From positions 1-27,336 of IMG/VR virus record IMGVR_UViG_3300030104_006348: a stretch of DNA of 27,336 bases; one strand, 5' to 3'. This DNA comes from a virus. Of the stretch, positions 1 through 8,892 are shown piece after piece (within the stretch, counting starts at the first letter, position 1; each line of letters opens with the position of its first letter). The translations under genes were made by a program, and so were the position numbers. The notes beneath the pieces were generated by a model. The model saw nothing but the letters and a program-made list of their open reading frames with translations, made no database searches and was not told the origin of the DNA.

Positions 1-366
1 GGTGTAAGTTTGATAGAACTGGGTAATATGTCACCAGAACTTCAGAATAGTGTGTTGAGGGGTAATGGATTAAATGATGATCAGATTAACACTCTTACAG
101 CACCGCTTGAAGCATCACTTGCAAGAGGTTTAAACTTACAACCAGGTGCTGCAAGAGTTACCAGACAAAAAGTTGATGTTACTATTAAAACACCACAATC
201 TCAAAATACAGGTGGTGCAACACAAGTGGTTCCAGTTCAACAGGGTAATGGTCAATTAAATAGTGCTGCTGCATCAGCTCAGGGTAAGGTTCCTAACTTT
301 GGAGCTGAAGATGGTGGGAACTTTGATCTTATCGTCGTTAAATCAATCTATAATATAGTAGGATAA
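1..366 (+). CDS. Unidentified virion-region protein, 5' end outside the window
   Basis: The reading frame is open from the first base, so this is probably the 3' part of a longer gene. A TTG at 10 and an ATG at 28 are the first possible starts inside the window, but neither has a convincing ribosome binding site. The visible part (about 121 residues) is rich in Gln, Asn, Ala and Gly in its middle, with no membrane segment or catalytic motif. It ends in a more hydrophobic stretch around DLIVVKSIYNIVG. The stop lies 3 bases before the next start, so it is likely co-transcribed with the tail lysin gene. I do not recognise the family. From its position it may be a tail or baseplate component, but that is inference. 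Confidence 0.6.
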   Translation, partial: GVSLIELGNMSPELQNSVLRGNGLNDDQINTLTAPLEASLARGLNLQPGAARVTRQKVDVTIKTPQSQNTGGATQVVPVQQGNGQLNSAAASAQGKVPNFGAEDGGNFDLIVVKSIYNIVG

Positions 367-369
367 GAC

Positions 370-3126
370 ATGCCATTACCTATGTTACTGGGAGGAATAG
401 CTAAGGGTATCGCTGGTGGTGCTGCGAAGGGTGCTGCTAAGAAGTTTGTCAGTGGTAAGAAAGATAAAAAACAAGAAGCAAAGACCGAAAGAAAATCAAA
501 GACAAAGGATTTAGGTCAGAAGACTTCAAAGAAAACCAAGGCAAAATCTACACCTAAGACTAAGAAGGTATCGACAGTCAAGTTACCAAAGAGTGTATAT
601 AAAGACGCCAAGAAGGCAGCAAAACCCACAGCAGGTAGTAATGTATCATATGACTCATTAAGTAAACAGCTTGACAATATCAATAAGACTGCTGGAGCAT
701 TAGGAACTCAGGCAGAATCAGAGAGACAGGCAGCGAAGGAAAACTTAAGACAGTCTAGAAAGGATGCTAAAGATAAAAAGGCAGACGACAAAGAGAAACA
801 ACTAGAGAAGAAGAAGGGTAAGAAAGGTGGTGGTATTCTTGGTGCTATAAAAAATGTTGGTAGTGAATTTGGTATAGGTAAATTTCTTACCAATATTGCA
901 CTTGGTGGACTTGCATTATTCCTTCTGAAAAATTTTGATAAGATTGAAAAATTATTCACACAATTAACACAAACATTTCAGAATCCATTTAGGTTTATTC
1001 AGACAAGTATTGTTGCAATGTCAACAGTTTTTGCTGGTCCATTAAGAAATGGATTGAGTTTACTATCAAAACCACTGAAGTTTGCTGGTAACCAGGTTGC
1101 AAAATTAGCTAAAAAAATAGCACCCATGATGAAGAAGACCTTTGCCAAAATTGGTAGTGGTCTTGTAGGTCTTACAAAAAATACTGTTGGTAGATTAACA
1201 AGTGCTATAACTGGTGGTGGAAAGGGTGCTGCTACAGGTGCTGCTCAAGGAACCAATGCCGCACGGAAGGGTCAATCTGTATCCAAGAGTCTTACAAAGG
1301 CAGGAAGACAACAAGGATTATTCAGACAGGCAAGGAAACTTTATGGTGGTGCGGCTAAGGGTGCTAAAAATGTAGCAAAAAAAGGTGCTGGTAGATTACT
1401 TAAAATTGGTGGTGTCTTTAAAAAGGTCCCTGTAATTGGTGGTTTACTTGGTCTGTTTATCGACCTGGCACTTGGTGAACCATTGGATAAAGCATTTGTA
1501 AATGCAATCGGTGGTGGTATCGGAGCGTGGATCGGTGGTGCAATCGGAACAGGACTCATTCCAATCCCTATTCTTGGATCTGCTATTGGTGGTTTTCTTG
1601 GATATGAAATAGGTAAATGGGGTGGAAATGTTTTATATGATATGATTAAGAAGAAGATGGGATTGATTCCTCCTATTGATCCTAAAGACAGGGAGATTGA
1701 TAGAGCATCTGATAGGATACCTGATAGAGATGATAGAGTTACGGGACAAACTTATAAACTACCTAGTGGTGAAAGTAAGGTATGGAATGGATCAAAATTT
1801 GTAACACCTCAGCAGTATCAACAACAGACAGGTAAGACTCCTTTACCTCTGAGTGGTTCAACTCCAAGTACATCATCTCCTCCAAGTGGTCCTCTCAACT
1901 TTAGTGGTTCTACTCAGCAAAAATTAATGTCAGCTGCTCAAGCAGCGATGGCTGCTGGATTTAGTCCAACACTTGCAAAACAAATGGCGGCCATTGCAAT
2001 GGCAGAGTCGGGAGGTGATCCAACAACTGACACCGTTAAGTCAGGGTTAGATCCCCTTAAGAAAAATGAGTATTCTATTGGTTTATGGCAGATCAACTGG
2101 AAGGTCCATGAACCTATGTTGAAAGCCATGGGTATCACAGAAGACGGGTTAAGAGATCCAGCTACTAACGCCAGAGCAGCGAAGAAGATTTACGACATGC
2201 AGGGACTCAATGCTTGGGGTGCATACGGTAACGCAAATTATAATAATTTCTATAGTATGGCTCAGAACTTGAACCTGTCACAACAACAAACCACCACACA
2301 ACCGCCAGGGCAGCAACCAACATCCACACCACTTGGAAGACCCGATCCTTTTGCTCCTGTCTCACAGACAACACCACAAGCACAGGTTGCACAGAGACAA
2401 ATACCTGCAGGACAACAAACACTCACTAACAAAATTCCTTACTCTCAATTCTCTAGTATGACTGGTGGTGGAAAAGTTGGTATGAGTGCAAAGGGTGATT
2501 ACAGAACTGCTCACAGACCAAATCACTTTGGTGTTGATATTGGAACCTCTGGTCAAAAGGGATATTACGTATCACTTAAAGCGGATGGTAAGGTCACTAT
2601 CAATCAATTTGATTCCAGAGGGGGTCATATGGTATTCATACGAGTTGGTAATATTGAATACGTTTTTATGCATCTTGCTCGTAAATCTGCATTGAGTGTT
2701 GGTTCTAATTACACTGCGGGAACTCCTATCGGTGAGATTGGAAACACCGGTAGATCATTCGGTGAACATCTACACTTTGAAGTAAGACCAGCAGGTGGTG
2801 GTTCTGGGACTGGCATAGATCCTAAACCCTACCTTAATATGTTAGAGATTGGTAGACTTGCAACCTCTGATGGAACACAAACACAACAAGTTCAACTATC
2901 TCAAAACCAACAGTCATCTGGTCAAGCTTCGTCGGTAAGTTCCCGTCCTTCTTATGATCCTATGTCACAAAATAATGGTGGAGGTATCGTTCCTGTTGGT
3001 GTTCCTGGTCAGTCCGGTGGTGGTGGAGGTGGAAGAGCATTGAATATGGGTGGTGCTTCTACTCAACAGGTGTTAAATAGTTATTATAAATCTCAACTGA
3101 TGGGATTCTTATATAAACAAGGATAA
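370..3126 (+). CDS. Tail-associated cell wall hydrolase: SLT lysozyme-like plus M23 peptidase
   Basis: A 918-residue protein that probably degrades host peptidoglycan locally during DNA injection. Residues 1-150 are extremely Lys-rich. A hydrophobic segment lies at about 168-188, and a glycine-zipper stretch (GGGIGAWIGGAIGTG and following) at about 353-425 could insert in a membrane. A lysozyme/SLT-like domain spans about 518-640, with candidate catalytic Glu546 in AESGGD and the family signature SIGLWQIN at 569-576. A LytM-type M23 domain spans about 700-815: H719 and D723 (HFGVD), H768, and HLH at 800-802 match the zinc ligands and catalytic histidines of that family. The C-terminus is Gln/Gly-rich with a poly-Gly run. 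The stop overlaps the next start (TAATG). Domain calls rest on motifs. A role as baseplate lysin rather than endolysin is inferred from the hub genes next to it. Confidence 0.85.
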   Translation: MPLPMLLGGIAKGIAGGAAKGAAKKFVSGKKDKKQEAKTERKSKTKDLGQKTSKKTKAKSTPKTKKVSTVKLPKSVYKDAKKAAKPTAGSNVSYDSLSKQLDNINKTAGALGTQAESERQAAKENLRQSRKDAKDKKADDKEKQLEKKKGKKGGGILGAIKNVGSEFGIGKFLTNIALGGLALFLLKNFDKIEKLFTQLTQTFQNPFRFIQTSIVAMSTVFAGPLRNGLSLLSKPLKFAGNQVAKLAKKIAPMMKKTFAKIGSGLVGLTKNTVGRLTSAITGGGKGAATGAAQGTNAARKGQSVSKSLTKAGRQQGLFRQARKLYGGAAKGAKNVAKKGAGRLLKIGGVFKKVPVIGGLLGLFIDLALGEPLDKAFVNAIGGGIGAWIGGAIGTGLIPIPILGSAIGGFLGYEIGKWGGNVLYDMIKKKMGLIPPIDPKDREIDRASDRIPDRDDRVTGQTYKLPSGESKVWNGSKFVTPQQYQQQTGKTPLPLSGSTPSTSSPPSGPLNFSGSTQQKLMSAAQAAMAAGFSPTLAKQMAAIAMAESGGDPTTDTVKSGLDPLKKNEYSIGLWQINWKVHEPMLKAMGITEDGLRDPATNARAAKKIYDMQGLNAWGAYGNANYNNFYSMAQNLNLSQQQTTTQPPGQQPTSTPLGRPDPFAPVSQTTPQAQVAQRQIPAGQQTLTNKIPYSQFSSMTGGGKVGMSAKGDYRTAHRPNHFGVDIGTSGQKGYYVSLKADGKVTINQFDSRGGHMVFIRVGNIEYVFMHLARKSALSVGSNYTAGTPIGEIGNTGRSFGEHLHFEVRPAGGGSGTGIDPKPYLNMLEIGRLATSDGTQTQQVQLSQNQQSSGQASSVSSRPSYDPMSQNNGGGIVPVGVPGQSGGGGGGRALNMGGASTQQVLNSYYKSQLMGFLYKQG

Positions 3127-4448
3127 TGCCAGCTTATCAAAACGCACCAGCATCTCCTGGTAATATTTCAAAATTTAAAATCTCATCTAATGTTTCTGAC
3201 AAGGCACTTGATCTATCGGGTGGTGTTGTAGAATTCAGATATTATGAGAGTGTACTGTCTAATAGTATCACTGCAACTGCTGTTGTTGTAGACAGTGGTT
3301 ATGAAGGTGATGGAGGATCTGTCAAAGCAGCTAAGGGTGTTCTAGATTCCCTACCAATCAGGGGTGGAGAGAGAACAGACATCGCAGTTGAAGATAACCT
3401 TGGAAATAAACTTAAGTTTAAAGATGGATTGTATGTCAATAGAGTAAGAGATGCAGACCCTGGAACTCAAAAAGATGTATTCTTTCTAGACTTTGCGTCT
3501 GCAGAATTCTTTGCCAATGAACAACAAAGAGTCATGCAAAGATTTGAGGGTAAGATATCAGAGCATGTCAAAGAGATCATAGGTACTATCAACGGTAAGT
3601 TTGAACAACTGGATAATACATCTTTGAGTTATAACTTTATTGGTAATGATAGGAAACCATTTTACACTTGTACGTGGTTAGCATCCAAGGCTGTACCAGA
3701 TAAAGACGTGGGTTCAAGAGCAGGATTTTTATTTTATCAAACCAGAGATGGTTTTAACTTTAGATCAATTGATAAGCTCTTTGAACAAGACCCAGTAAAG
3801 ACTTTTATATTCAACAACACGGGCGAAACACCACCTGAAGTTGATGCAAATGTTTTAAGTTACTCTATCGACCAGGATGTTGACCTCAAACAAAACTTGA
3901 CACTTGGTACATATAATAATAGATCTATCTACTTCAATCCATTCTCCATGGATTACTATGTGAAAGAGTACAAATACATTCCAGAAAATCTTGGGGCTGC
4001 AGGTAGATTCTTTGGTGGTGATATGGTAGCCGAAGAGTTCACACAATCACCAACTAGATTGATGAGTCATGTATTTGATGTGGGTGCAATGCCTAATGGA
4101 ACGGGTAACGATCAATTAGATCAGTGGAAGTCAGCCAAAACTGATCCTAACTATGACGCTGAGAACACCATGGCTCAATCAGTCATGAGATATAATCAAA
4201 TGTTCTCTATCAAAACAAACGTGACAATCGCAGCTGATTATAGTATAAAGGCTGGAGACATTGTTAAATGTAAATTCCCTGAAGTACGTGGTGACAGAAA
4301 GGATGGTACTAATCCCCAAACAGATGGCATATATATGGTAGCAAGTGTGTGTCACAGGGTAACTCCAAGGGATAGCTTTACTAAACTAGCGTTAGTCAGA
4401 GACTCCTTTGGTACTAAATCAGGATACAAATCCAGTAGTGCATATTAA
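3126..4448 (+). CDS. Baseplate hub protein, gp27-like
   Basis: A 440-residue soluble, mixed alpha/beta protein without signal peptide or membrane segments. Its length, its position directly before an OB-fold hub protein, and its C-terminal beta-rich part (around IKAGDIVKCKFPEV and DGIYMVASVCHRVTP) fit the T4 gp27 / Mu gp44 type of tail hub, a ring that links the tail tube to the central spike. The start codon overlaps the stop of the lysin gene and its stop overlaps the next start, both as TAATG, so translation is probably coupled and stoichiometry linked. No catalytic motif is visible. The gp27-like call comes from context and overall character; a structural comparison would be needed for certainty. 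Confidence 0.65.
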   Translation: MPAYQNAPASPGNISKFKISSNVSDKALDLSGGVVEFRYYESVLSNSITATAVVVDSGYEGDGGSVKAAKGVLDSLPIRGGERTDIAVEDNLGNKLKFKDGLYVNRVRDADPGTQKDVFFLDFASAEFFANEQQRVMQRFEGKISEHVKEIIGTINGKFEQLDNTSLSYNFIGNDRKPFYTCTWLASKAVPDKDVGSRAGFLFYQTRDGFNFRSIDKLFEQDPVKTFIFNNTGETPPEVDANVLSYSIDQDVDLKQNLTLGTYNNRSIYFNPFSMDYYVKEYKYIPENLGAAGRFFGGDMVAEEFTQSPTRLMSHVFDVGAMPNGTGNDQLDQWKSAKTDPNYDAENTMAQSVMRYNQMFSIKTNVTIAADYSIKAGDIVKCKFPEVRGDRKDGTNPQTDGIYMVASVCHRVTPRDSFTKLALVRDSFGTKSGYKSSSAY

Positions 4449-6847
4449 TGATTGAACAAGGACTCTTTAAAAGATATTTTGTAGGAAGAGATGGATTCAT
4501 CTGGTGGATAGGCCAGGTGGCTCCCGAATCAACATGGGAAGGTAACAAAACAACTCCTCCTCCAGCCAACAACTCAGCCATCAAAGGTTTTGGTGAGAGA
4601 TTCCGTGTCCGTATCATGGGGTATCACACCGCGAATATCGATGAGATACCTGATGAAGAACTACCGTGGGCGTATGTAATGTACCCCGTCACCGCAGGTG
4701 GTGGTGGTCGTAATGGTTCCCAGTCAGCTAACATCTCACAGGGTGATTTCGTCTTTGGTTTCTTCATGGATGGTGAGGATGCTCAGATGCCAGTCATCAT
4801 GGGTATCCTTGGTAACAATGAGTATGCTGCAGTCAGTAAAAATATTACCAAGGCAAGGTTCGTTCCCTTCAGTGGTTACACCGAGAATGATAATGTATCA
4901 TCAACATCATTGAATGTTGATAGAGGTGGTGAGATTGTTAGACAAGAGGGTGCTCAGACACCTGAAGGTAAAACTGATAATGAAGGTGATAAGACTGGTC
5001 AACCTAACAATGCGGAAGTTCATGAGGCAGCATCTGCATCAACTGGAAGACAAAGTGCTGCTGATGATGTTGCTTCAGAAGAGGAGACTAAACCTCTTGC
5101 ACAAAGTGAAGATTGTGAACCATTACCAGTAGGTAGGATTCAAAAAGAAATACAAAATATTATTGTCAAAATTCAAAGATTACAGAAGTCACTCTACAAA
5201 TATTCTGGTGCGGTAAAGAATCGGTTCGGTGATATTCAGAAACAGATCGATAAGGAAATTGAAAAGGTTACTAAATTAATTTCTGGAGGATTAAAAACAG
5301 TCTTCACCACCATAGAGAAGAATGTTCTTAACACTGTGAACAAAGAACTCAAGAAAACATATTTCCTTCTGTTCCCAAATGAAAGACCAGCATTGAAAGC
5401 AGCAGTTGAGACTGTGAATGATTTGATCGCATGTCTGTTCAGAAAATTCATCGGGCAACTTCTAGGACAGGTAGGTAGTTTCGTAAAGGATGCAGCTAAG
5501 AAAGTAATTGATGTTGGTAAGTGTCTTGTAGAGAATTTGATCGGAAACACTCTTGGCAAAATACTTACACAAGTTCAGGATGGTATTAGTGGAGCTTTGA
5601 GTTCTGTTACATCACTTATTGGACAAGCAACTAAAATTGCTGATGACATTCTTGGAGTCATTACGGATGTTCTTTCATTCCTTAAGTGTGATGAGAAACC
5701 TCAGTGTTCCGACGTTACTGAATGGAACATTCTTTCTGGTGGTGGAAAAGTAAGTAAAGGTGACATTGAAAATATTGTTGGGAGTGCTAAGAACTTTGCT
5801 AAAGGATTTCAGACATCAGTTGATAATGCTGTCAATGCAGGAGAGGGTCTTAAAGATACGGTTGAAGATTTGTTGAAGAATGATTTCACAGATGTCTTCA
5901 ATGTATCTGGATGTGGTGTAGGCCCTATAGCATGTGGTCCTCCTTTAGCTGAGTTCTTTGGAGTTGGAGAGGGAGCACTTGGTAATCTAATTATTGGTGC
6001 CGCAGGTGAAGTAATTGGTATTGATATGAAGAGTTTTGGTATCGGATATCAGAAAGGAAGGACATTTGGTAAGGTCAAAGACAATTGTGGTAAGGGAAAG
6101 GGTGCTGTCATTAGACCTATCATTGAAGATTACACTGATGATGACGGTAATACACAGTCTGGTATAGTTGATATTGAGATTGTGTATTCTGGTACAGGAT
6201 ATCTTGCAGCACCAGATGGAAGTAGGGGTGGTAATGAATATACTTGGGCTGACCCCGAAGATACGATTGTCAAGAAACCAAATGGTGATTATGAGGTCCC
6301 AAGACCACCCGGTAATGTGATTGTGGTTGGACCTGGTGATGAAGTTATCACTCCACCTGGTACAATTATCGTTACTGAACCTATTGAGGGCGATCAAGGT
6401 GGTGGTGAGGAAATCAGAGGTGGAATTCCTACTATTCTTGAAGCTCCTGGTGTAATCACATCACCTCAACCAGACTTTAGTAGACAATCTGGAGTGTATC
6501 CAACCGAATCTAATGGTTCTTACCCCGTCATCATGTATCTCTGTGAGATATTCATTGATGATAGTGGTATCAATTATAACTTTGAGGATAAGGTTGTGAT
6601 TGAACCTGACATTGGAGCGAAGGCAGAAGCTAAGTTTGATAAACAGGGGAGGGTCACATCTGTTAAGGTCACCGTACAAGGTGAGGGATTCACAGAATTC
6701 CCAAGGGTTTACATTAGATCTGAAACAGGTTATAATGCTCAATTGAGACCCAAACTCTGTATAGATAGAGTCGGGTCAGACAAACTCAAGGAACCAACAT
6801 CTCAAGATAAGATCATTTCAGTTATAGATTGTGTAGGTAAGATCTAA
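4448..6847 (+). CDS. Baseplate hub subunit, gp5-like OB-fold protein without lysozyme domain
   Basis: A 799-residue protein. Residues about 45-135 (RFRVRIMGYH ... LPWAYVMYPV ... GDFVFGFFMDG ... PVIMGILG) show the OB-fold pattern of the gp5/VgrG N-terminal domain that sits on the hub. An acidic, low-complexity linker follows. Residues about 230-430 are helical and hydrophobic with amphipathic repeats, then a Pro/Gly-rich stretch around 600-680 (VIVVGPGDEVITPPG). The C-terminus carries beta modules with G-x-G-Y/F motifs (GTGY near 586, GEGF at 745-748). T4 gp5 has a lysozyme domain after the OB fold; none is visible here, and wall hydrolysis seems to be delegated to the 918-aa protein upstream. 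It overlaps both neighbouring genes by one base. Confidence 0.75.
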   Translation: MIEQGLFKRYFVGRDGFIWWIGQVAPESTWEGNKTTPPPANNSAIKGFGERFRVRIMGYHTANIDEIPDEELPWAYVMYPVTAGGGGRNGSQSANISQGDFVFGFFMDGEDAQMPVIMGILGNNEYAAVSKNITKARFVPFSGYTENDNVSSTSLNVDRGGEIVRQEGAQTPEGKTDNEGDKTGQPNNAEVHEAASASTGRQSAADDVASEEETKPLAQSEDCEPLPVGRIQKEIQNIIVKIQRLQKSLYKYSGAVKNRFGDIQKQIDKEIEKVTKLISGGLKTVFTTIEKNVLNTVNKELKKTYFLLFPNERPALKAAVETVNDLIACLFRKFIGQLLGQVGSFVKDAAKKVIDVGKCLVENLIGNTLGKILTQVQDGISGALSSVTSLIGQATKIADDILGVITDVLSFLKCDEKPQCSDVTEWNILSGGGKVSKGDIENIVGSAKNFAKGFQTSVDNAVNAGEGLKDTVEDLLKNDFTDVFNVSGCGVGPIACGPPLAEFFGVGEGALGNLIIGAAGEVIGIDMKSFGIGYQKGRTFGKVKDNCGKGKGAVIRPIIEDYTDDDGNTQSGIVDIEIVYSGTGYLAAPDGSRGGNEYTWADPEDTIVKKPNGDYEVPRPPGNVIVVGPGDEVITPPGTIIVTEPIEGDQGGGEEIRGGIPTILEAPGVITSPQPDFSRQSGVYPTESNGSYPVIMYLCEIFIDDSGINYNFEDKVVIEPDIGAKAEAKFDKQGRVTSVKVTVQGEGFTEFPRVYIRSETGYNAQLRPKLCIDRVGSDKLKEPTSQDKIISVIDCVGKI

Positions 6848-7422
6848 TGGCAGCAGAAAAATGTACCCATACCATTAGATATGGCACTGCTGAGGGTGAA
6901 CTTCAGTTTGGCCATATCACAATGGACAATGTTCTATCAGGATGTCTGTTGAGGAGTGGTAGTTCTCTTAATCATTATATTTCTTTGGACTCCTCTGGTG
7001 AGGAGCATAGAAAACATGGTACAATTTGTCGTTCTCCTGGTTCATTTCAGGTTGAGGCAGGAGATAATGTAACAGGTGCTACTCCTGGAGTTTATATCGA
7101 AGCTGTTAGTGGTGATCTGGTATTGAAAGCACCCAGTGGTCGTGTTAAAATTGAAGGTGTCAACATTCAACTGGTCGCAACAGGATCAGATGGAAACAAT
7201 GGTAATGTAGAAATCACTGCCAATGAAAAAGTTATTGTCAAATCACAAATCATTGATTTATCATCTAAAGCATCTACCAAGATTTTTTCTGAAAAGACTG
7301 TTGATGTGATTGGTAGAGCAATTATTGATATCTATGGAGGATTTATTGACATGGCAGACGGAGCGACTAGTGTTAAAAGATCACTAGGAGTATCAATTAA
7401 TGAGGAGAAGAATAACGCATGA
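6847..7422 (+). CDS. Spike-like beta-structured protein
   Basis: A 191-residue protein that probably forms part of the central membrane-puncturing spike. After an N-terminal segment with several Cys and His, residues about 70-180 alternate short hydrophobic strands and turns (GVYIEAVSGDLVLKAPSGRV, then VEITANEKVIVKSQIIDLSS), the pattern expected for a gp5C/VgrG-type triple-stranded beta-helix. It starts within the stop of the OB-fold hub gene (TAATG) and its stop overlaps the next gene as ATGA. The OB fold and needle, a single chain in T4 gp5, therefore seem to be encoded separately. No enzyme motif is seen. It could instead be a generic beta-prism structural protein. Confidence 0.6.
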   Translation: MAAEKCTHTIRYGTAEGELQFGHITMDNVLSGCLLRSGSSLNHYISLDSSGEEHRKHGTICRSPGSFQVEAGDNVTGATPGVYIEAVSGDLVLKAPSGRVKIEGVNIQLVATGSDGNNGNVEITANEKVIVKSQIIDLSSKASTKIFSEKTVDVIGRAIIDIYGGFIDMADGATSVKRSLGVSINEEKNNA

Positions 7423-8195
7423 AGGTACCTGATTTATTTACTGGTAAAAGATTTTTCCTTGGGTTTGGAAACCCTGAGGCTTTAGGAAGAGGTCCAACAG
7501 AAATTCGTGGGTCTGGATATCTACAGGGTCCTACCATTACTGGTGCAGCTGCATTCCCTAATGTATGGGCAACATCAATGATTGGGCCCCTAGCTAATCC
7601 AGAATCACCTCCTCCCTTAATTCCGGGTGCATTGTGTTACGTACCCATTGCAAACCCATTCTCATTGTCTGTTGTAGGAAGCACAGCACTGATGGGTATG
7701 GTTCAGACTAACTTTGATGTGATTGTTGGAAGACACCTTGCAGCTCAGGGTGATGTGATTTCTAATTGTGGTGGTCACGTTCTTTCTCTAAAGAAGAACT
7801 TTGATATCCCTCACCCATCTAAGAAGGGTTATAGACTAAGACATACCTGCCCAGAGGCTCCCACTAATGATGTTTACATCAGAGGAACACTTAAAAATAA
7901 GGATGTTATTGAACTCCCCGATTACTGGGAACGTTTTGTACATCAGGATTCAATTACAGTGAGTATTACTCCTATCGGATCTCATCAGGACATCATTGTT
8001 AGGGGTAACAATGCGAAGGCAATCTACCTTCAATCACGATCCGCTGTTCCAATTCATTGTTACTATCATGTATATGCTGAACGAAAGGACGGAGACAAAT
8101 TAATTCCAGAATACAAAGGTAAATCACCAGCAGACTATCCGGGTGACAACAACCAGTATTCTATTGTAGGATACCATTACGACATCAAGAACTGA
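7419..8195 (+). CDS. Structural protein with C-terminal FDIPHP-type domain, paralog 1
   Basis: A 258-residue protein. The N-terminal half is Gly/Pro-rich with short beta strands and may be an oligomerisation or tip region. The C-terminal part, from about residue 125, carries NFDIPHPSKKGYRLRHTC followed by VYIRG at 152-156, YWERF, ITPIG, CYYHVYAERKDG and DYPG. This domain is shared with the next gene and, as far as I recall, is widespread at the C-termini of marine phage tail proteins, where it is usually left unnamed. At the position where the paralog reads LEGPEAGVYIRG, this copy reads PEAPTNDVYIRG, so a conserved stretch is altered. Its start overlaps the spike gene's stop (ATGA). It may cap the spike or serve as a minor fiber; function is not established. 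Confidence 0.6.
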   Translation: MKVPDLFTGKRFFLGFGNPEALGRGPTEIRGSGYLQGPTITGAAAFPNVWATSMIGPLANPESPPPLIPGALCYVPIANPFSLSVVGSTALMGMVQTNFDVIVGRHLAAQGDVISNCGGHVLSLKKNFDIPHPSKKGYRLRHTCPEAPTNDVYIRGTLKNKDVIELPDYWERFVHQDSITVSITPIGSHQDIIVRGNNAKAIYLQSRSAVPIHCYYHVYAERKDGDKLIPEYKGKSPADYPGDNNQYSIVGYHYDIKN

Positions 8196-8196
8196 C

Positions 8197-8892
8197 ATGA
8201 CATCATCAACACCAGACTTCGGACCATTTTTAGAAAGAAGTGGAGGGGGATCACCCACATGTAACGACAATCAAGTTACAGGACAAGCATCCACTATCTT
8301 CTCATACATTGCTAAACACAGTAATGATGATGACGATGCTCCACATAATCCATATACAAAAGTCCAATGCCAACCATATTATCATTCCACCGCACAGATT
8401 GATCGTCTACAGGTGAACACTGACCTCACCGGTGCAGCCCTTATTAATGTTGGTGGTGTTATCACAGGTTCTAGTGTTCAAGACACTGCTGGTAATATTC
8501 TAGCGGTCAAGAAAGACTTTGACATTCCTCACCCCACTAAAGAAGGACACAGATTGAGACATGTCTGCCTTGAAGGTCCAGAGGCTGGTGTTTATATCAG
8601 AGGAAAATTGAAGGGAACAAGTATCACTGTCCCTGGATACTGGGGTGGTCTGATTGACCCAGAGACCATTAGTGTTCATCTCACACCCATCGGAGCGTAT
8701 CAAGAATTGTATGTTGAATCCATTCAATATGGTAGAAGGATTCAGGTTAGAAATAATTTGAGTGGCCCTATTGAATGTTATTATACAGTCACTGCCGAGA
8801 GAAAGGATGGTGAGAAGTTGATCGCAGAATACAAAGGAACCAGTATCGAGGACTATCCAGGTAATAACGCCGAATACAGCCACAATAAGTAG
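8197..8892 (+). CDS. Structural protein with C-terminal FDIPHP-type domain, paralog 2
   Basis: A 231-residue protein that starts one base after the previous stop and is paralogous to it over the C-terminal ~130 residues. Visible motifs are DFDIPHPTKEGHRLRH (residues 107-122), LEGPEAGVYIRG (125-136), a GYWGG turn, LTPIG, CYYTVTAERKDGEKLI and DYPGNN. The N-terminal ~90 residues differ: polar, with an acidic NDDDDA stretch, then a small beta-repeat (INVGGVITGSSVQDTAG). It closes the coupled hub cluster. A σ70-like promoter begins 14 bases after its stop. It is likely a virion protein of the tail tip or fiber; the domain's exact role is unknown to me. Confidence 0.6.
   Translation: MTSSTPDFGPFLERSGGGSPTCNDNQVTGQASTIFSYIAKHSNDDDDAPHNPYTKVQCQPYYHSTAQIDRLQVNTDLTGAALINVGGVITGSSVQDTAGNILAVKKDFDIPHPTKEGHRLRHVCLEGPEAGVYIRGKLKGTSITVPGYWGGLIDPETISVHLTPIGAYQELYVESIQYGRRIQVRNNLSGPIECYYTVTAERKDGEKLIAEYKGTSIEDYPGNNAEYSHNK

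Follow-up and report, generated by a model that had tools for sequence, protein, structure and literature searches.

T4 opens a local hole in the cell wall with the lysozyme of its gp5, and the podophage phi29 carries a tail-knob hydrolase, gp13, in which an M23 peptidase is accompanied by a second, lysozyme-like domain. Sugar- and peptide-cutting domains also share one polypeptide in YomI (CwlP) of SPbeta, a protein with a tape-measure annotation, in which Pfam places SLT at residues 1425-1533 and M23 at 1579-1674; CwlP is regarded as a D,D-endopeptidase and, by gene neighbourhood, as a virion-associated lysin (review PMC9662197). The hub protein gp15 of cyanophage A-1(L) is a single baseplate protein that has domains of both the glycan and the peptidase type and is active on Anabaena cells (PMC10966104), and the contractile bacteriocin diffocin has CD1368, a single hub-hydrolase protein with lytic transglycosylase and endopeptidase (PMC11329794). 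The tape measure of T5, pb2, is reported to be both muralytic and fusogenic (Boulanger et al. 2008, cited in PMC6116005). A tape measure with SLT plus M23 (YomI) and a cyanophage baseplate protein with dual wall activity (A-1(L)) are therefore already known. A first-pass annotation of the locus described here overstated the case for a combined wall drill, since both activities occur together in YomI, phi29 gp13 and the A-1(L) hub, and we reject the view that such a drill is without precedent. General accounts of domain shuffling likewise cover endolysins, tail proteins and tape measures (PMC10684548).

The window, by which we mean the whole stretch of 27,336 nucleotides analysed (IMG/VR record IMGVR_UViG_3300030104_006348), is a piece of a T4-like cyanophage genome. 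One of its open reading frames begins with ATG and runs through 918 codons without an internal stop, and the closest named genomes by its product are those of Synechococcus phages RB11-B, RN05-S, S-B05 and S-H68. The features of this gene and its neighbours are collected in the table.

Table. Features of the 918-aa protein gene and adjoining genes in the window
Feature	Position	Strand	Remarks
918-aa tail protein, T4-GC14 position	370..3126	+	second of tandem paralogous pair; wall-hydrolase carrier
N-terminal chassis, aa 1-440	370..1689	+	Lys-rich start; predicted long helix 94-148; hydrophobic helices 167-187 and 346-414; GxxxG repeats
Small predicted beta element, aa 456-496	1735..1857	+	just N-terminal to exchanged region; pLDDT about 67-79 at centre
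SLT_3 lysozyme-like domain, aa 524-616	1939..2217	+	putative catalytic E546
Peptidase_M23 domain, aa 718-809	2521..2796	+	H719, D723, H768, H800, H802
Conserved C-terminal helix, aa 898-918	3061..3123	+	ends ...NSYYKSQLMGFLYKQG; proposed hub-docking segment
Upstream paralogue (T4-GC13 position), last 118 aa only	10..366	+	cut by window edge; ends ...FDLIVVKSIYNIVG
440-aa tail protein, phrog_350 (GC15)	3126..4448	+	gp27-like baseplate hub
gp5-like central spike	4448..6847	+	weak Gp5_OB match; no recognisable lysozyme domain

Pfam placed both wall-cutting domains above cut-off: SLT_3 (E 8.7e-15, 55.4 bits against a cut-off of 27), SLT over aa 538-607 (E 2.7e-6, 27.4 bits against 21.3) and Peptidase_M23 (E 9.9e-14, 51.7 bits against 28.7). 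The putative SLT glutamate, assigned by motif only, lies in AMAESGG and is followed by SIGLWQIN, and the ES plus GLMQI-like motif expected of SLT and lysozyme-like domains is present. The M23 motifs HxxxD, H and HxH are all found, their five residues at exactly the positions that the first-pass annotation had given for an intact site, and 14 relatives conserve all of these motifs, the middle His of L015 being seen only by eye, as RSLHLA. The claim of an SLT-type lysozyme domain and an M23 peptidase in a single tail-cluster protein is thus borne out at the level of domains and complete active-site motifs, from which SLT is predicted to cleave glycan and M23 to cleave peptide.

Structure prediction, proposed earlier as a check, succeeded for one part of the protein: the full-length AlphaFold model has a mean pLDDT of 44 and M23 as its only confident core, which adopts a LytM-type fold and matches LytU (5kqb; Z 13.7, rmsd 3.3, 124 residues) as well as other M23 structures. 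Among the latter is phi29 gp13 (3csq_D; Z 8.8, rmsd 3.0, 108 residues), which has H(x)7D spacing (PMC9662197) whereas the 918-aa protein has H(x)3D. The A-1(L) hub gp15 (8kea_A; Z 7.4, rmsd 3.7, 106 residues) is the only hub-bearing entry among the matches listed, and it aligns through its peptidase part to a model that is poor outside M23. In A-1(L) the hub barrel itself bears the enzymes as fusions, whereas in the window the hub is a separate gene and the enzymes sit on its helical neighbour; diffocin CD1368 is also hub-fused, with NlpC/P60 in place of M23, and belongs to a bacteriocin directed against Gram-positive bacteria. YomI shares the order SLT then M23 but differs in size (2285 aa), in its PhageMin_Tail domain, in coming from a Bacillus siphophage and in being a single gene with no paralogue partner seen; the tblastn match between the two proteins covers the M23 part only. 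The 918-aa protein also matches phrog_1067 ("minor head protein"), as does the M23 protein of S-PM2 over its own M23 region.

With 42 K+R against 16 D+E in its first 150 aa, the N-terminus is indeed Lys-rich, as had been noted. Hydrophobic stretches occur at aa 167-187, 346-373 and 379-414, and these helices are conserved; hydrophobic segments are also present in T4 gp29 and in the annotated tape measure of HTVC008M. Within aa 340-430, GxxxGxxxG occurs 5 times (P about 0.01) and GxxxG 8 times (P about 0.07), where shuffles that preserve composition give 1.1 and 4.9, respectively, while Pfam Gly-zipper_Omp had no match in the 918-aa protein and reached relatives only, below cut-off. The earlier term "glycine zipper" is a fair but loose description of this segment, and the enrichment of the tandem pattern is modest. 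From the hydrophobic helices and GxxxG repeats, the protein may insert into the membrane and contribute to a DNA channel, a drill plus channel for which the siphophage protein T5 pb2 is the conceptual counterpart by description.

The gene order gp26, gp51, GC13, GC14, GC15, gp5 is seen across Kyanoviridae, the 918-aa protein being GC14, and is fixed in RB11-B, S-B05, S-H68, P-SSM2, S-PM2, S-N03, S-CREM2 and Syn9, with two small genes and a tRNA ahead of gp5 in Syn9. The first-pass annotation missed two features of this locus, a tandem paralogue upstream and an exchange of enzyme cassettes. BLASTP related GC13 to GC14 within one genome in Syn9 (E 4.7e-17), S-PM2 (E 6e-17), S-H34 (E 1.4e-5) and S-CAM1 (E 3.6e-5), and profiles of the two from the lineage of the window aligned with E 1.7e-9 over 187 columns, against E 0.0027 or worse for reversed and locally (window-) shuffled controls. 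Both S-PM2 proteins belong to phrog_5453; profile comparison of the P-SSM2 pair detected no relationship. By these comparisons the 918-aa protein is classed as the second of two tandem paralogues. Elsewhere in the window, at 7419-8195 and 8197-8892, another two adjacent genes are tandem paralogues, both matching phrog_17490 and phrog_28536.

Several GC13 counterparts have features of their own. That of L001 and L015 contains an amidase-like pattern (PGHA...E...EIHMDA...LIELGN) at about aa 534-728, and the GC13 fragment in the window seems to begin within the LIELGNM motif of this block (positions 10-60); the amidase-like reading is tentative because the block gave no significant Pfam or PDB match. 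The S-PM2 counterpart (L006:2114-5617) has an ADP-ribosyltransferase-like N-terminal domain at aa 66-218 (Pfam ART, E 1.3e-5, above cut-off) together with Phage_lysozyme2; this N-terminal domain may enter with the virion and modify the host. In S-CRM01 (L020:10410-13004) a single 864-aa gene, with Phage_lysozyme and an M15-like stretch, replaces the pair by fusion or loss, and could reveal which member of the pair is essential. Both genes are much lengthened in S-CREM2 (L017:6484-15555), which has the longest reported cyanomyovirus tail; there GC13 has low-complexity Ser/Thr/Asn runs and GC14 has QSMGSVAPAGGF-type repeats.

Comparison with close relatives delimited an exchanged cassette at about aa 485-665 of the 918-aa protein, with the frame kept. 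Between the window and L024, identity is 79% over the N-terminal 440 residues, 14% in the SLT region, 97% in M23, 90% in the C-tail and 95% in GC15, and at the nucleotide level the sequences are 87-98% identical downstream of the slot but agree at only about 40% across the slot itself. In L024 the slot holds a Hydrolase_2 domain, just above the Pfam cut-off, in place of SLT; L015 combines a Hydrolase_2-type domain, which scores under the curated cut-off, with a distinct M23 (47%). Pfam further found Phage_lysozyme2 in the slot of L031 and a sub-threshold DPBB in that of RB11-B, while the slot domains of L029, L035, S-B05 and RN05-S are unassigned, PDB searches with the S-B05-type domain yielding nothing useful, and L038 has M23 only. 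In L030, L032 and L033 an extra SGNH-like block of about 145 aa (QKIAVLAYGTNEWG..., about aa 655-810 of GC14), for which PDB sequence searches gave no useful match, lies between the glycan slot and M23. The M23 domain is kept in all lineage members sequenced through that region. The pairs of other phages carry Phage_lysozyme2 and M23 (S-PM2), SLT_3 and VanY (DSL-LC03), Glucosaminidase and M15 (S-RIM2) or Glyco_hydro_19 and Phage_lysozyme (S-N03, S-H34 and S-CREM2); in P-SSM2 and Syn9 Pfam recognised no wall enzyme in either GC13 or GC14. Altogether, the frame is conserved and the wall enzymes on it behave like exchangeable cassettes, with the replacement of one domain by another seen directly in the alignments. 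The tail drill looks modular because close relatives keep the frame but swap the sugar-cutting enzymes, and relatives thereby alter their wall-cutting chemistry with the tail-fitting parts unchanged.

Downstream of the pair, GC15 gave a low-confidence model (pLDDT 44) whose top Foldseek match was T4 gp27 (E 6.7e-10). We read GC15 as the hub because of this match and because the others listed at E 0.001 or better were hub, VgrG or baseplate-type entries. Profile comparison with T4 gp27 gave a probability of 6-10%, VIA-align returned mostly tube-barrel matches to residues 10-131 with only some hub entries, and a PDB sequence search with the GC15 alignment had no match. GC15 is a virion protein in S-SM1 (PMC3037559). 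In S-SKS1 (L012:8001-9265) the hub gene matches in two pieces, unannotated in the record, perhaps through a frameshift or sequencing error. The Pfam match of Gp5_OB to the gp5-like protein is sub-threshold, and Pfam found no lysozyme domain in gp5 of the window, as the first-pass annotation had remarked, or of eight T4-like cyanophage relatives; that the lack of a recognisable gp5 lysozyme is general among the T4-like cyanophages tested escaped that annotation. Because the GC13/GC14 pair carries mixtures of enzymes while gp5 has no recognised lysozyme, the task of cutting the wall seems to have passed from spike to pair, although divergent gp5 domains could be missed.

The positional counterparts of GC13 and GC14 in S-CREM2, ORF208 and ORF209, were identified as virion proteins through mass spectrometry (73 and 71 peptides, respectively); the authors call them endolysins and suggest a capsid location (PMC10665884). 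By analogy, the 918-aa protein is probably a virion protein in the phage studied here. An internal capsid protein ejected with the DNA, opening the wall and lining a channel in the manner of T7 gp16, which has a wall-cutting domain (PMC6116005), would agree with that suggestion, and the fold matches of M23 include a pre-ejectosome chain of cyanophage A4 (9k2v_A; Z 12.0, rmsd 4.7, 129 residues). We consider this very unlikely, however, since the gene lies in the hub/baseplate cluster, away from the capsid genes, and T4-like phages are long-tailed and do not need an internal core to span the envelope. The endolysin label itself comes from several PHROG matches, and a lysis enzyme that frees progeny late in infection would fit it; yet phrog_7, phrog_790, phrog_1200 and phrog_12490, though so labelled, contain long cyanophage hub-cluster proteins, phrog_7 matching the S-CRM01 protein over its full length, and the label probably misleads annotation. 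The virion presence of the S-CREM2 counterparts, albeit in another phage, speaks against a lysis role too, and hydrophobic helices with a conserved C-terminal helix are not endolysin features; such a role is highly improbable.

The position of the pair in the tail cluster, next to the hub and spike genes (gp51-GC13-GC14-hub-gp5), fits a tape measure. A match of the 918-aa protein to the tape-measure family phrog_167 was dropped and carries no weight, because all of the 14 control genomes match that family as well. No similarity to T4 gp29 was detectable by hhalign. Tail and protein lengths (both members of the pair) are 418 nm and 1565/1456 aa in S-CREM2, 138 nm and 933/722 in S-N03, and 129 nm and 936/735 in S-H34, with 140-170 nm and the single 864-aa gene in S-CRM01. 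Simple proportionality of length to tail fails for GC13 or GC14 alone, and at 1.5 A per residue either S-CREM2 protein alone is too short for its tail. These data could be accommodated by a wall hydrolase that does not act as a ruler but is carried by the gp27-like hub at the end of the tube until contraction delivers it, another gene measuring the tail: the gene directly adjoins the hub gene, similarity to gp29 is absent, lengths differ widely among relatives, and enzymes are carried on hub proteins in A-1(L) and diffocin (PMC10966104, PMC11329794). Against this, a place in the tube lumen suits the long helical N-terminus with its several hydrophobic helices, as it does the conserved C-terminal helix, and the pair occupies the place beside gp51 that is held in HTVC008M by an annotated tape measure; we regard a hub-bound, non-measuring hydrolase as unlikely.

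We favour, at a probability of roughly two in three, a tape-measure-like virion protein that occupies the tail lumen and hub as second member of a tandem pair, docked at the hub by its C-terminal helix and delivering wall enzymes after contraction. The tube-lumen, hub-docked placement is suggested because gene position, the long helical N-terminus, the hydrophobic helices and the conserved C-terminal helix all fit it. The tape-measure part is the weaker half, as gp29 similarity is absent, phrog_167 fails its control and lengths are not simply linked to the tail. The poor full-length model outside M23, the capsid location suggested for the S-CREM2 proteins and the P-SSM2 pair, in which Pfam recognised no wall enzyme, also count against the favoured reading. 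The C-terminal helix would dock on the gp27-like hub, over the gp5 spike. In A-1(L) the tape measure has C-terminal helices that build a tripod and, within the hub, intertwine with helices at the N-terminus of the spike (PMC10966104), and the helix of the 918-aa protein could wind with the spike in the same way. On sheath contraction the spike would breach the outer membrane and the paralogue pair would leave the tube, the 918-aa protein being ejected from the tail; SLT would then cut glycan strands and M23 peptide cross-links, producing a local hole in the wall, and the hydrophobic helices would probably help the DNA pass the inner membrane.

More broadly, T4-like cyanophages might have exchanged two T4 components, the tape measure gp29 and the lysozyme of gp5, for a paralogous pair of tape measures that shares the tube lumen, is co-docked at the hub by C-terminal helices and serves as a standing chassis for hydrolase cassettes, a proposal that we put forward tentatively and hold to be somewhat less probable than its negation. 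In open PMC papers we did not find the tail-length protein of marine T4-like cyanophages named, and neither the paralogous pair at this locus nor cassette exchange on it was found described there. GC13 and GC14 are currently labelled hypothetical protein, peptidase or endolysin; the pair between gp51 and the gp27-like hub offers a concrete candidate for the tail-length protein. A domain swap on a nearly unchanged frame means that a single step can alter the wall-cutting chemistry of entry and leave tail assembly intact, and this could matter for host range.
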